Positions 53,909 through 60,444 of a stretch of 64,000 nucleotides of DNA are shown in pieces. A program made the position numbers and the translations under genes. The stretch spans positions 2,728,001-2,792,000 of the forward strand of contig NZ_CP016076.1 in NCBI RefSeq assembly GCF_001941625.1, written 5' to 3'. The notes under the pieces are model-generated. The model was not told the DNA's origin and made no database searches. It saw only the letters and a program-made list of their open reading frames with translations. Source of the stretch: Actinoalloteichus fjordicus. GTDB taxonomy: Bacteria > Actinomycetota > Actinomycetes > Mycobacteriales > Pseudonocardiaceae. The stretch's first letter is position 1. The number at the start of each line of letters is the position of its first letter.

Positions 53909-54071
53909 GAGCCTGTCTTTGGTCCCCCTGGAGTCGTGAGCGGGGATCAGCGTGGATGAGCTGCCAGGTGGAGGAAGGAGGCATAACGGAGTTATGTTGA
54001 CTGACGACAACGCCGCAGATCGCCGCGCCGGCCCCCCGCGCAACAGGAAAGTGGGGATTAAAGACAGGCTC
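53909..54071 (+). mobile_element. MITE-like element, copy A (163 bp)
   Basis: This is a non-coding element with terminal inverted repeats: GAGCCTGTCTTTGGTCCCC at the left pairs with GGGGATTAAAGACAGGCTC at the right (17 of 19). It is flanked on both sides by TAA, a 3-bp target duplication; the left TAA is the whiA stop codon. The interior contains a hairpin CATAAC-GGA-GTTATG (53982-53996). No transposase is encoded. A second copy, in inverted orientation, lies at 60283-60444 with about a dozen differences. The ends and 3-bp duplication suggest mobilisation by an IS5-like transposase acting in trans, which is inference. Confidence 0.9.
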
Positions 54072-54456
54072 TAACGGCGGGCGGCCCATGCCTGCGAGTT
54101 CCTGCGGTGGTGCGCCGCCCTGCCGACGGCGCAGAGCGGCCTCGCTGCCGGTCGCGGCCGCCGGTCGCCTGCGGCGAATCGGGATCGATCGTCGTCGTGC
54201 GGGCAGGCTGGGGGGTCCCGAAGTCGTATCACCGCAGCGAGCGTGCGGTGCGCCGGGCCTGCTGCCGCTACTCGATGTTCGAGGGGGGTGGGCAGCGGGC
54301 AGGCGCGCCGGTTACCGTGTGCTGGCTCGATCAAGAGAGACATCAGGTCGTGATGACCTGTGCTTCTCGTCGGGCGATAGGGTGGCGGCTGGCAGCGTGG
54401 CCATCCGTGTGTAACTCACCGGCAATCAATCGTTCGAGTATCTGAGGAGACGCACC
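54072..54456. other. Regulatory region upstream of gap
   Basis: These 385 bases hold the gap promoter. A perfect dyad CAGGTC-GTGAT-GACCTG lies at 54344-54360 and a likely -10 box TAGGGT at 54378-54383; the ribosome site GAGGAGA precedes the GTG start. The left half shows nothing recognisable. Confidence 0.55.
54344..54360. promoter_or_regulatory. Dyad operator candidate upstream of gap
   Basis: The perfect 6-bp inverted repeat CAGGTC / GACCTG is separated by five bases and is centred about 26 bases before the putative -10 (TAGGGT at 54378-54383), i.e. over the -35 region. This is a place where a dimeric regulator could control glycolytic genes. No known family consensus is matched. Confidence 0.5.
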
Positions 54457-55476
54457 GTGACGGTTCGTGTAGGCGTCAACGGCTTCGGTCGCATCGGGCG
54501 CAACTTCTGGCGCGCAGTCAACGCATCCGGTCTGGACGTCGAGATCGTCGCCGTCAACGACCTGACCGACATCGCCACCCTCGCACACCTGCTCAAGTAC
54601 GACAGCGTGCTGGGCACGCTGAATGAAGAGGTCACTGCAGAGGGTGACTCGATCAAGGTCGGCGGCAAGACCATCAAGGCGCTGGCCGAGCGTGACCCGG
54701 CCGCGTTGCCGTGGGGCGAGCTGGGCGTCGACGTCGTCATCGAGTCCACCGGCCACTTCACCAAGGCCGAGGACGCGCGCAAACACATCGAGGCGGGCGC
54801 GAAGAAGGTCATCATCTCGGCGCCTGCCAAGGGCGAGGACCTCACCGTGGTGCTCGGCGTCAACGACGACAAGTACGACGGCAGCCAGGTCGTGCTGTCC
54901 AACGCCTCCTGCACCACCAACTGCGTGGCGCCGATGGCGAAGGTTCTGCACGAGGCGTTCGGCATCGTCAAGGGCCTCATGACGACGGTGCACGCCTACA
55001 CCAACGACCAGGTCATCCTCGACTTCCCGCACAAGGACCTGCGTCGGGCGCGTGCCGCCGCGACCAACATCATTCCCACCACGACCGGTGCCGCCAAGGC
55101 CACCGCGCTGGTGCTGCCGGAGCTCAAGGGCAAGCTGGACGGCATGGCCATGCGCGTCCCGGTGCCGGACGGCTCCGTGACCGACCTGACCGTGGAGCTG
55201 TCCCGGCCGGTGACCAAGGCCGAGGTGAACGCGGCGTTCAAGGCCGCCGCCGAGGGGTCGCTCAAGAACGTGCTGGTCTACACCGAGGACCAGATCGTCT
55301 CCAGCGACATCGTCGGTTCTCCCGCGTCCTGCACCTTCGACTCGTCGCTGACGCAGACGGCGGGCCCGGACGAGGCGGACACCACGGTGAAGGTCGTCGG
55401 CTGGTACGACAACGAGTGGGGCTACTCCAGCAGGCTGGCCGACCTCGCCGTGCTGGTCGGCGCCAAGCTCTCCTGA
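54457..55476 (+). CDS. gap: Glyceraldehyde-3-phosphate dehydrogenase (type I)
   Basis: This NAD-dependent glycolytic enzyme has 339 residues with the N-terminal Rossmann motif [14 protein letters not shown], the catalytic Cys in [12 protein letters not shown] (about residue 156), TVHAYTNDQ and [11 protein letters not shown]. The GTG at 54457 follows GAGGAGA. It leads the gap-pgk-tpiA-secG operon; pgk starts 20 bases later. The order downstream of whiA is conserved in actinobacteria. Confidence 0.98.
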
Positions 55477-55495
55477 TCAGGAAGAGGACGGCCCA

Positions 55496-58499: not shown

Positions 58500-58533
58500 G
58501 TGGTCTTCGAACGATCAAGGTGGTGGGGTTCAC

Positions 58534-60216
58534 ATGGCCATTCTTTATCGCGCGTTATGGAGCGATCGCGATGTGGACCTGGTGGCTCGCGTGCGCCGGG
58601 TGTTCTCCGCGTGGGTCACGACGAAGAGCCGCGGTCGTCTCCTCACGGACTCACCTCAGGAACGGACTGACGACGGGACAATGCGGTCTCGGATCGCCTA
58701 TGAGGTCAGCAACCGTCCTGGCACCGAGATCTCGGCGGTCTTTCGCGGCATGCTCGTCGAGACACGAGACGACGGCTCGCGATGGACGACGACCGTGCGT
58801 TCGTGGGCAGGTGACTGCGTCGAGAAGGACCTCGGCGGACAGCATGGCTGGATCTGGGTCGACGTCGAGGCGGTGAGTTACGAGTCGCTCGATGACGTCA
58901 CGGTCGCCGCTCCGAAATTCGTCCGAACTCTCCTTTCTGAAGGGGTGAATCCGACCGACTCAGATGTGCTGCTGTCACATCAGCCTCGAGAATTCGTGGG
59001 CGCCGACGGGGCCGAAGAACTTGCCGAATTGATCACGAGTATGGGTCGAGTGGTGCCCGTGGTCGTCTTCACGCCACTCCCGCGCGACTCCTCGTTCCGT
59101 GCTTCGCGGGCGGCGATGCCGATGCGGGACCGATTCGACGAGCTGATGGTGCGGGCCGCCGGTATGGCTGCGGGTCTCGCGCTGATCACTCTGCTGGATG
59201 AGACGGGCGTAGAGCAGTTCAATCTGATCATGGGTGACTCCTACGCGGTCCGGGACGGCGCGTTCCGGATCTATGAACCCGGCGTGGACCCTGCGTTGGA
59301 CGAGGGCTGGCGGCATCGGTACACCCTGCCCACGCGTTTCCTGCGCTATCGCCAGACTGCGGGACAGGTGATCAACCGGGCGATCTCGCTGCGAGCGGGC
59401 GCCCGGCGGGCGCCCGCGAGCTTCGAATTCGCCGAACGAATGCTCAATGACGCGGTACGACGGGAGCCTGCCGAGTGGGCCGAACTCATCACGATTGCGG
59501 AGGAGGAGTCGGCCGAGCTCCGCACCAGGGTGTCCTCGCTCGATCAGCGATATCTCGATCTCCTCGATGAGCAGTATCAGCTGGAGGGGGACAACAACAG
59601 GCTTCGGGCGGAGCTCGGTGAGGCACGTCGGAAGCTCGCCCTCGCCGAGCCTGCGTTATGGCGCGATAAGCCGGAGGCGATGCAGCAGCTCCTCGCCGAG
59701 CAGGTGCCCGCGAGCGCGGATTCGCCCACCGACGCGATCCTGCTCGCACAGGAGCATCTGAATGATCGGTTGTGTCTTCCCGCCGAAGCATGTGCCCATA
59801 TTGCGCATCTCGACAACGCGGTTGAGGCGCGTGCCTGGGGTGAGACCTCGTGGCGTGCGTTTCTGGCCCTCCACGCCTACGCGGTGGCGCTGGTCGGAGG
59901 CGAGGCTCCTGGCACGTTCTGGACCTGGTGTGAGACCTCGGGCCATCCCGCTGCCTGGCCCGCCACCACCAAGAAGCTCGCGATGAAGGAGAGCGAGACC
60001 GTGCGGAATTCCACCCGGCTATGGAGTAAACGGGAGTTCATCGTCGATCGGCGAGTGTCTCCCTCTGGGCGCATCTACATGGAGGCCCACATCAAGATCG
60101 CCACCGGTGGCGGGCCGTTGGCCCCTCGCATCTACTTCCATCCGTCCAGGGAGACCGGCATGGTGCACATCGGCTATTACGGGCCGCATCGCAATGTGCC
60201 CAACACCTTGACGTGA
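58534..60216 (+). CDS. Large protein of unknown family, with coiled coil
   Basis: I do not recognise this 560-residue protein. It has three parts: an N-terminal globular region (residues 1 to about 230, opening MAILYRALWSDRD and later VVPVVVFTPLPRDSS), a central coiled coil (about residues 310-375, with ELRTRVSSLDQRYLDLLDEQYQ and NNRLRAELGEARRKL), and a C-terminal domain of about 170 residues ending RIYFHPSRETGMVHIGYYGP. There is no signal peptide or membrane helix. Codon 8 (58555-58557) and the codon at 59656-59658 are TTA, rare in this genome, so translation may depend on the bldA-type tRNA. Codon use is less GC-biased than in the neighbours. It stands alone, with its own promoter, beside a MITE copy, which suggests acquired accessory DNA; a defence or developmental role would be speculation. 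Confidence 0.85.
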   Translation: MAILYRALWSDRDVDLVARVRRVFSAWVTTKSRGRLLTDSPQERTDDGTMRSRIAYEVSNRPGTEISAVFRGMLVETRDDGSRWTTTVRSWAGDCVEKDLGGQHGWIWVDVEAVSYESLDDVTVAAPKFVRTLLSEGVNPTDSDVLLSHQPREFVGADGAEELAELITSMGRVVPVVVFTPLPRDSSFRASRAAMPMRDRFDELMVRAAGMAAGLALITLLDETGVEQFNLIMGDSYAVRDGAFRIYEPGVDPALDEGWRHRYTLPTRFLRYRQTAGQVINRAISLRAGARRAPASFEFAERMLNDAVRREPAEWAELITIAEEESAELRTRVSSLDQRYLDLLDEQYQLEGDNNRLRAELGEARRKLALAEPALWRDKPEAMQQLLAEQVPASADSPTDAILLAQEHLNDRLCLPAEACAHIAHLDNAVEARAWGETSWRAFLALHAYAVALVGGEAPGTFWTWCETSGHPAAWPATTKKLAMKESETVRNSTRLWSKREFIVDRRVSPSGRIYMEAHIKIATGGGPLAPRIYFHPSRETGMVHIGYYGPHRNVPNTLT

Positions 60217-60282
60217 CTGTGCCCCCGCCGGCCGGTCGCGTTCCACCAGGTGAGGTGAGTACGCGACCGGACCGCCTCCTGA

Positions 60283-60444
60283 GAGCCTGTCTTTGATCCC
60301 CACTTTCCTGTTGCGCGGGGCAGGTGGCGGCGATCTGCGGCGTTGTCGTCAGTCAACATAACTCCGTTATGTCTCCTTCCTCCGCCTTGCAGCTCAGCCA
60401 CGCTGATTCCCGCTCACGACTCCAGGGGGATCAAAGACCGGCTC
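60283..60444 (-). mobile_element. MITE-like element, copy B (162 bp)
   Basis: This is the second copy of the element at 53909-54071, in inverted orientation. Its terminal repeats are GAGCCTGTCTTTGATCCCC (left) and GGGGGATCAAAGACCGGCTC (right). The central hairpin CATAAC-TCC-GTTATG is at 60357-60371. Flanks are TGA on the left and TTA on the right; the TTA is the minus-strand TAA stop of the DUF2267 gene. The flanking triplets fit a TNA target but differ at one base, so the duplication may have decayed. Confidence 0.9.

Follow-up and report, generated by a model that had tools for sequence, protein, structure and literature searches.

Two short inverted copies of one element each adjoin the stop codon of a gene in a 64,000-nucleotide stretch of Actinoalloteichus fjordicus DNA (hereafter the window, positions 2728001-2792000 of the 7.12 Mb single-contig genome, NZ_CP016076.1), and the question raised by this locus is whether such an element is kept for the gene that it follows or spreads on its own behalf. 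We suggest, with a probability of roughly 60%, that the copies are miniature inverted-repeat transposable element (MITE)-like elements moved by transposases of IS5-type insertion sequences (IS), and that a conserved single-strand fold in their interior (the core) aids the spread of the element and not the neighbouring gene. The same fold recurs with different ends in many bacteria, suggesting that something keeps it intact.

A mobile element, its target and its probable partner

Copy A (53909-54071, plus strand, 163 bp) and copy B (60283-60444, minus strand, 162 bp) differ by about a dozen substitutions and a single 1-nt gap when aligned, and the related inverted pair described in the original prediction is real. 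The left and right terminal inverted repeats of copy A, 19 bp each, lie at 53909-53927 (plus strand) and 54053-54071 (minus strand); the repeat at the ends was scored as 20 nt at 90% in copy A and 23 nt at 91%, flank included, in copy B. Both copies contain the previously noticed hairpin CATAAC-GGA-GTTATG (53982-53996, plus strand, at the apex of copy A), and their folding z-scores against shuffles are -7.62 (A) and -7.64 (B). Copy A is flanked by TAA on both sides, the left duplication (53906-53908, plus strand) being the stop codon of the open reading frame (ORF) 52922-53908, assigned to whiA from its sequence, and the right one lying at 54072-54074 (plus strand). Copy B adjoins, also as reported before, the TAA stop (60445-60447, minus strand) of the minus-strand ORF 60445-60852, and its far-side triplet in the same reading is TCA (60280-60282, minus strand), so that an exact duplication is absent.

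In both sister species of the genus that were compared, whiA ends with TGA and has no element, and the copy at whiA was therefore inserted in this lineage; of the two sister species, one has a single copy elsewhere and the other none. The proposed inversion between copies A and B is not supported by the rapZ-yvcK-whiA-gap order (genes named by sequence), which is unchanged in both species. The sole copy in the sister genome G001 (L034 1501-1659) lies, by eye, just upstream of the apparent atpA start, a position that reads as inside the ATP synthase operon.

In the source genome, BLAST detected at least 41 matches to the element (40 of 141 candidates scored), the covariance model, at E<=0.01, detected 93 (150 candidates scored), and the end motif 161 when up to 3 mismatches were allowed, versus 0 with a reversed control (100 of the 161 places listed). 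The model matches were reduced to 88 by dropping the five weakest and to 87 located copies, one lying outside the loci examined. Both ends were recognized within 2 mismatches in 78/87 of the located copies and one end in 9/87, the longest clear-cut copies being 165 bp. The triplet TNA, named as the target in the original prediction, stands at the left side of 64 and the right side of 50 of the 78 two-ended copies; left and right triplets are identical in 32/78, and TNA in 31 of those 32. A C precedes the left triplet in 61/78 copies and a G follows the right triplet in 64/78. These triplet and flanking counts define the target as C-TNA-G, with 3 bp duplicated on insertion. The short length, inverted ends, duplication, dispersed copies and lack of a transposase gene agree with the MITE-like nature proposed earlier.

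The end-motif search of relatives gave matches in 36/386 genomes, and one of the 12 stretches fetched around them contains a 979-bp IS, TTA-GAGCCAGTCTTTGA ... TCACAGACAGGCTC-TTA, that is, with matching ends and a TTA duplication. Its transposase of 275 residues matches DDE_Tnp_1 (E 3.2e-31) and DUF4096 (E 2.6e-27); a full-length partner with the predicted IS5-like ends thus exists in a relative. IS5-type elements that duplicate TNA form the group known as IS1031-like. Of six loci on Streptomyces plasmids with annotated IS5 elements, four show inverted ends flanked by CTAG. The core model detected no core in the 23 sources that contain IS or control loci (best E 0.27), so that, as far as these cases go, the core is not left over from an IS. 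We infer movement in trans, in which an IS5-type transposase would act on the 19-bp ends and the C-TNA-G target and leave the 3-bp duplication.

In four IS5-family elements on Streptomyces plasmids (L278 1433-2743, L279 1433-2775, L280 1442-2936, L281 1442-3150) the CTAG-flanked inverted ends lie 1.3-1.7 kb apart, and the space between them holds, in addition to the transposase, a passenger ORF encoding hypothetical proteins or an alpha/beta hydrolase. Relatives also have elements of 361-733 bp whose end motifs are similar but which contain neither the core nor a called transposase gene (L310 1724-2457, L318 1845-2488, L319 2417-2778).

A conserved fold between changing ends

The original prediction noted the internal CATAAC/GTTATG hairpin and missed the conserved structured core. 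The core is one bulged hairpin of about 115 nt, matched by the covariance model at 53931-54047 (plus strand) in copy A (G000:C1:2781931-2782047, E 1.4e-21) and at 60307-60422 (minus strand) in copy B (G000:C1:2788307-2788422, E 2.4e-19). It varies least at an asymmetric internal loop, GCAAGGCGGAGGA opposite GACGACAACGCNGC (the strands also written GCAAGGCGGAGGA/GACGACAACGC), beneath the variable apical hairpin. In copy A, the 5' strand of this loop (53963-53975, plus strand) is GCCAGGTGGAGGA, mostly GCAAGGCGGAGGA in relatives, and the 3' strand (54003-54016, plus strand) is GACGACAACGCCGC.

A family-wide BLAST gave matches in 65/390 genomes, those near E=1e-4 being short and probably due to chance, and the strong matches beyond the genus cover the interior only. 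These interiors come from elements that measure about 160-175 bp and have inverted ends of other kinds; folded individually, they yield the same bulged hairpin. When 21 interiors were aligned with MAFFT, 93.0% of the cells were paired in the common structure versus 79.5% after shuffling, a percentage that leans towards the structure since it was derived from the same 21 sequences; two-sided changes occur in 27/41 pairs and in 110 cells versus 28.7 shuffled (0/500). With 93 distinct rows aligned by the model, pairing is 91.9% versus 70.7% and two-sided cells number 733 versus 218.6 shuffled (0/500), in an alignment that is fitted to the structure and includes some rows found by a pattern fixing the loop motif. 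Shifting the pairing partners by 1-3 columns in these rows left only 61-160 two-sided cells. Alignment A2 omits L057 (spurious) and L050, L053 and L054 (truncated or variant), and two analysis steps took chosen sets of 100 and 81 loci. Rfam 15 gave only chance-level matches below the gathering threshold, for 221 bases of the window and 9 relatives. A coding interior was rejected, as the frame after the ATG of some copies is not preserved in relatives.

Other lineages have the same core enclosed by inverted ends of unrelated sequence. Of 89 elements, 75 have inverted repeats on either side of the core, versus 16/294 mismatched flank pairs, and among 76 elements outside the source genome the mean identity of the ends is 0.481 (0.445 shuffled) versus 0.662 for the cores, some of the end assignments being automatic and rough.

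The model detected the core in 78/386 genomes and 24/46 genera of the family of the window (taken to be Pseudonocardiaceae; 9 candidates scored per genome), in 19/396 genomes across the phylum, the source genome counted, and in 144/199 genomes of one other genus (g53, probably Streptomyces to judge by the scan of named genomes; 18 candidates scored per genome). A contig scan of named genomes found at least 119 stretches, with all listed titles from Actinomycetota and mostly from Streptomyces, and the 43 matching plasmid records are all from Streptomyces; a Paenibacillus plasmid match was rejected as chance. The phage collection gave no BLAST match with a Streptomyces element as query. In the virus collection two patterns matched 24 distinct contigs and a third matched nothing; 20 of the 24 appear to be chance matches, and the other four (L340, L348, L352, L359) fold as long hairpins; three of them have 30-40% GC. 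Their ends, e.g. TATAGTCGACGCACTTGA, do not resemble those of the IS5 type. These four could be host or prophage DNA. Their core stands at the tip of inverted repeats that are very long and belong to other types (L340 9820-10025, L348 625-850, L352 1259-1458, L359 1470-1690), and L340 has phage-like neighbours, judged by eye.

A conserved loop motif and covarying stems that reach across phyla might also suggest that the core comes from a host noncoding RNA gene, captured by transposon ends and still binding the protein partner of that RNA, much as eukaryotic short interspersed nuclear elements (SINEs) descend from host RNAs. We regard this origin as very unlikely, given that no Rfam relative was found, that 75 of the 89 cores are flanked by inverted repeats and that no clearly free-standing gene copy was recognized. 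A separate, passenger reading deserves tentative consideration, at somewhat less than even odds: the core may be a single ancient structured nucleic acid of the Actinomycetota and beyond, carried between the ends of several unrelated IS, whose single-strand fold (as RNA or folded DNA) would recruit a conserved bacterial protein for propagation.

Strand asymmetry, stop codons and the proposed role of the fold

The stem cells contain 358 G-U versus 36 A-C combinations, numbers that the opposite strand would reverse. Among one-sided changes from Watson-Crick majority pairs outside the source genome, 195 are G-U and 16 A-C; the low-frequency variants (seen once or twice) divide into 20 and 16, and all 10 classes seen more than 5 times are G-U. 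The rows are related and detection may favour well-paired copies, which limits how far these ratios can be read. The two-sided changes are independent of the asymmetry.

The asymmetry bears on two explanations that need no single-strand fold. Template-switch correction between arms is known for long palindromes, and in an ordinary MITE it could produce paired changes between imperfect-palindrome arms with no selection on the fold; core-less derivatives with repeated junctions in the source genome suggest that hairpin-mediated deletion does happen there. A strand-blind process, however, should give equal G-U and A-C numbers, not 358 versus 36, the bulges and the asymmetric loop stay in place across all families compared, and the near-constant loop sequence in AT-rich contigs is left unexplained, making this account improbable. 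To the same low degree we credit the proposal that the core is a double-stranded, subterminal binding site for a transposase or host protein, palindromic for a dimer. Transposase-bound ends do often exceed the terminal repeat in length, but the partner IS elements examined have no core, and neither the asymmetric loops nor the strand asymmetry of the stem changes is expected of such a site.

Rare changes in resident copies of the source genome look neutral (18 G-U versus 21 A-C one-sided changes at frequencies up to 2), within the limits given above. We read this as a loss of constraint after insertion, with constraint acting on the lineages that are still spreading.

The stop codon of a called gene stands exactly at the border in 26/78 copies (16 sense and 10 antisense, p=0.33), according to our own codon-usage script, which misses some small genes, e.g. 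the rbpA-like ORF of the window. This position, the very stable fold and the sense excess (16 versus 10 at stops, 20 versus 12 in tandem contexts of the source genome) would be consistent with an element that persists at gene ends because it acts as a terminator for the host gene or stabilises the 3' end, its stop-codon position being selected. We consider such a role unlikely, since neither sense/antisense split is significant, the pairing is not favoured by rare changes in resident copies, and the whiA copy is missing in the sister species. A second sample of 92 elements, drawn from 119 loci in named genomes of actinomycetes that are mostly Streptomyces (duplicates and elements less than 700 bases from a locus end removed), gave 17 versus 17 in tandem contexts (p=1) and 10 versus 9 by orientation for stops within 3 nt. 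A sense preference after genes, as expected of a strand-specific terminator or 3' untranslated region, was thus not found in either sample, and a host-gene role judged by orientation was dropped; the same orientation relative to the adjacent gene, noted for copies A and B, does not extend into a rule. Replication strand gave no significant bias either (50 versus 37 copies, counted by hand from the GC-skew sign of the fetched loci).

The CTNAG sites in 300,021 bases of the source genome fall within genes in 181 cases, between genes in 101 and at stop codons in 29, so that stops make up 29/130 (22%) of the non-genic sites regardless of the element, versus 33% of the insertions (chi-square by hand, p about 0.08). 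A gene call runs into the element in 6/78 copies only, and genic insertions are therefore much rarer than genic sites. Insertions are common at stop codons because the C-TNA-G sites at which a gene stays intact are often stops and the duplication restores the stop. Target choice and loss of genic insertions account for most of the pattern; the case for selection of the stop-codon position, as suggested earlier, is weak at best.

That the fold most likely serves the spread of the element is suggested by three observations taken together: the core sits in unrelated ends, its sense-strand pairing is kept by paired changes over long evolutionary distance, and rare changes in resident copies look neutral. 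The fold, as RNA or as folded single-stranded DNA, may be recognized by the transposition machinery or by some host factor of wide occurrence, and would most likely be required for the propagation of the element itself rather than for the neighbouring gene.

Several results weigh against this interpretation. In the source genome, one-sided changes overall number 47 G-U versus 92 A-C, with 50 of the 92 A-C changes in two columns that are apparently misaligned or unpaired there. The terminal repeats, intended as a symmetric control, show a G-U excess as well (122:46 in the source genome, 63:12 in others), and the asymmetry is thus not special to the core. A sense-strand C-to-T bias could partly explain the excess; selection and such change are inseparable because the A-T majority pairs are too few (3 versus 2 changes). 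The partner IS was not found in the source genome within what was examined: a DUF4096 search gave 3 matches, 1 above the cut-off and none with matching ends, other transposase families not being searched there. Finally, the source genome contains derivatives that keep both ends and are without most or all of the core (L324-L329, L331, L334, L337, L338), mostly of 58-71 bp with one of 112 bp and of the same end classes as full elements; in several of them the junction is the same and the TNA duplication exact. If these forms of about 60 bp moved as such, the core is not needed for movement. Alternatively, they arise by hairpin deletion at CTGG repeats, as suggested by the junction common to different end classes.

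Relation to known systems and further observations

The element resembles IS5-family MITEs in its short length without a transposase gene, inverted ends, 3-bp TNA duplication and dozens of copies, and in sharing its ends with an IS of a relative that encodes a DUF4096/DDE_Tnp_1 transposase. Unlike the usual members, its interior is not a remnant of the IS found, and the fold is conserved across lineages with unrelated ends. The interior of a MITE is commonly seen as dead filler; in this element it is the interior that is conserved and the ends that change. The element is MITE-like in kind, and its new part is the conserved, end-independent fold. Should the fold drive mobility, a DNA-transposon system would include single-strand structure among its functional components. 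A description of the element was not found in the open-licence PubMed Central (PMC) literature. Stable stem-loop transcripts of MITEs are mentioned in the portions consulted of one source, which gave no match for actinobacteria or Streptomyces (PMC10969869).

Repetitive extragenic palindromic (REP) sequences, REPINs and other palindromic repeats, as described in the sections consulted, are likewise hairpin-forming, dispersed and often near gene 3' ends (PMC3116915, PMC3733652, PMC1590033). REP sequences are given there as 20-40 bp (PMC3116915, PMC3733652), whereas the element of the window has about 160 bp and, unlike REP palindromes, a target duplication (TNA). Compensatory stem changes and conserved loops are shared with structured RNA families (Rfam 15, and the survey of 104 candidates, seen in part, in PMC2864571). 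Unlike these families, the unit that contains the core is mobile and multicopy, and no Rfam match came near the threshold.

Eukaryotic SINEs are non-autonomous, structured and parasitic on the enzymes of other elements, and the element is like them in being non-autonomous, structured and presumably dependent on foreign enzymes. It is unlike them in its terminal inverted repeats and short fixed duplications, which point to DNA transposition, and no sign of reverse transcription was seen. If the passenger reading were true, the element would give bacteria a DNA-transposon equivalent of SINEs.

A model for this common gene-end repeat would help the annotation of Streptomyces and related genomes. 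Tandem side-by-side copies were observed at G000:C1:6431781-6432056 in the source genome and at G677:C1:3523027-3523305.

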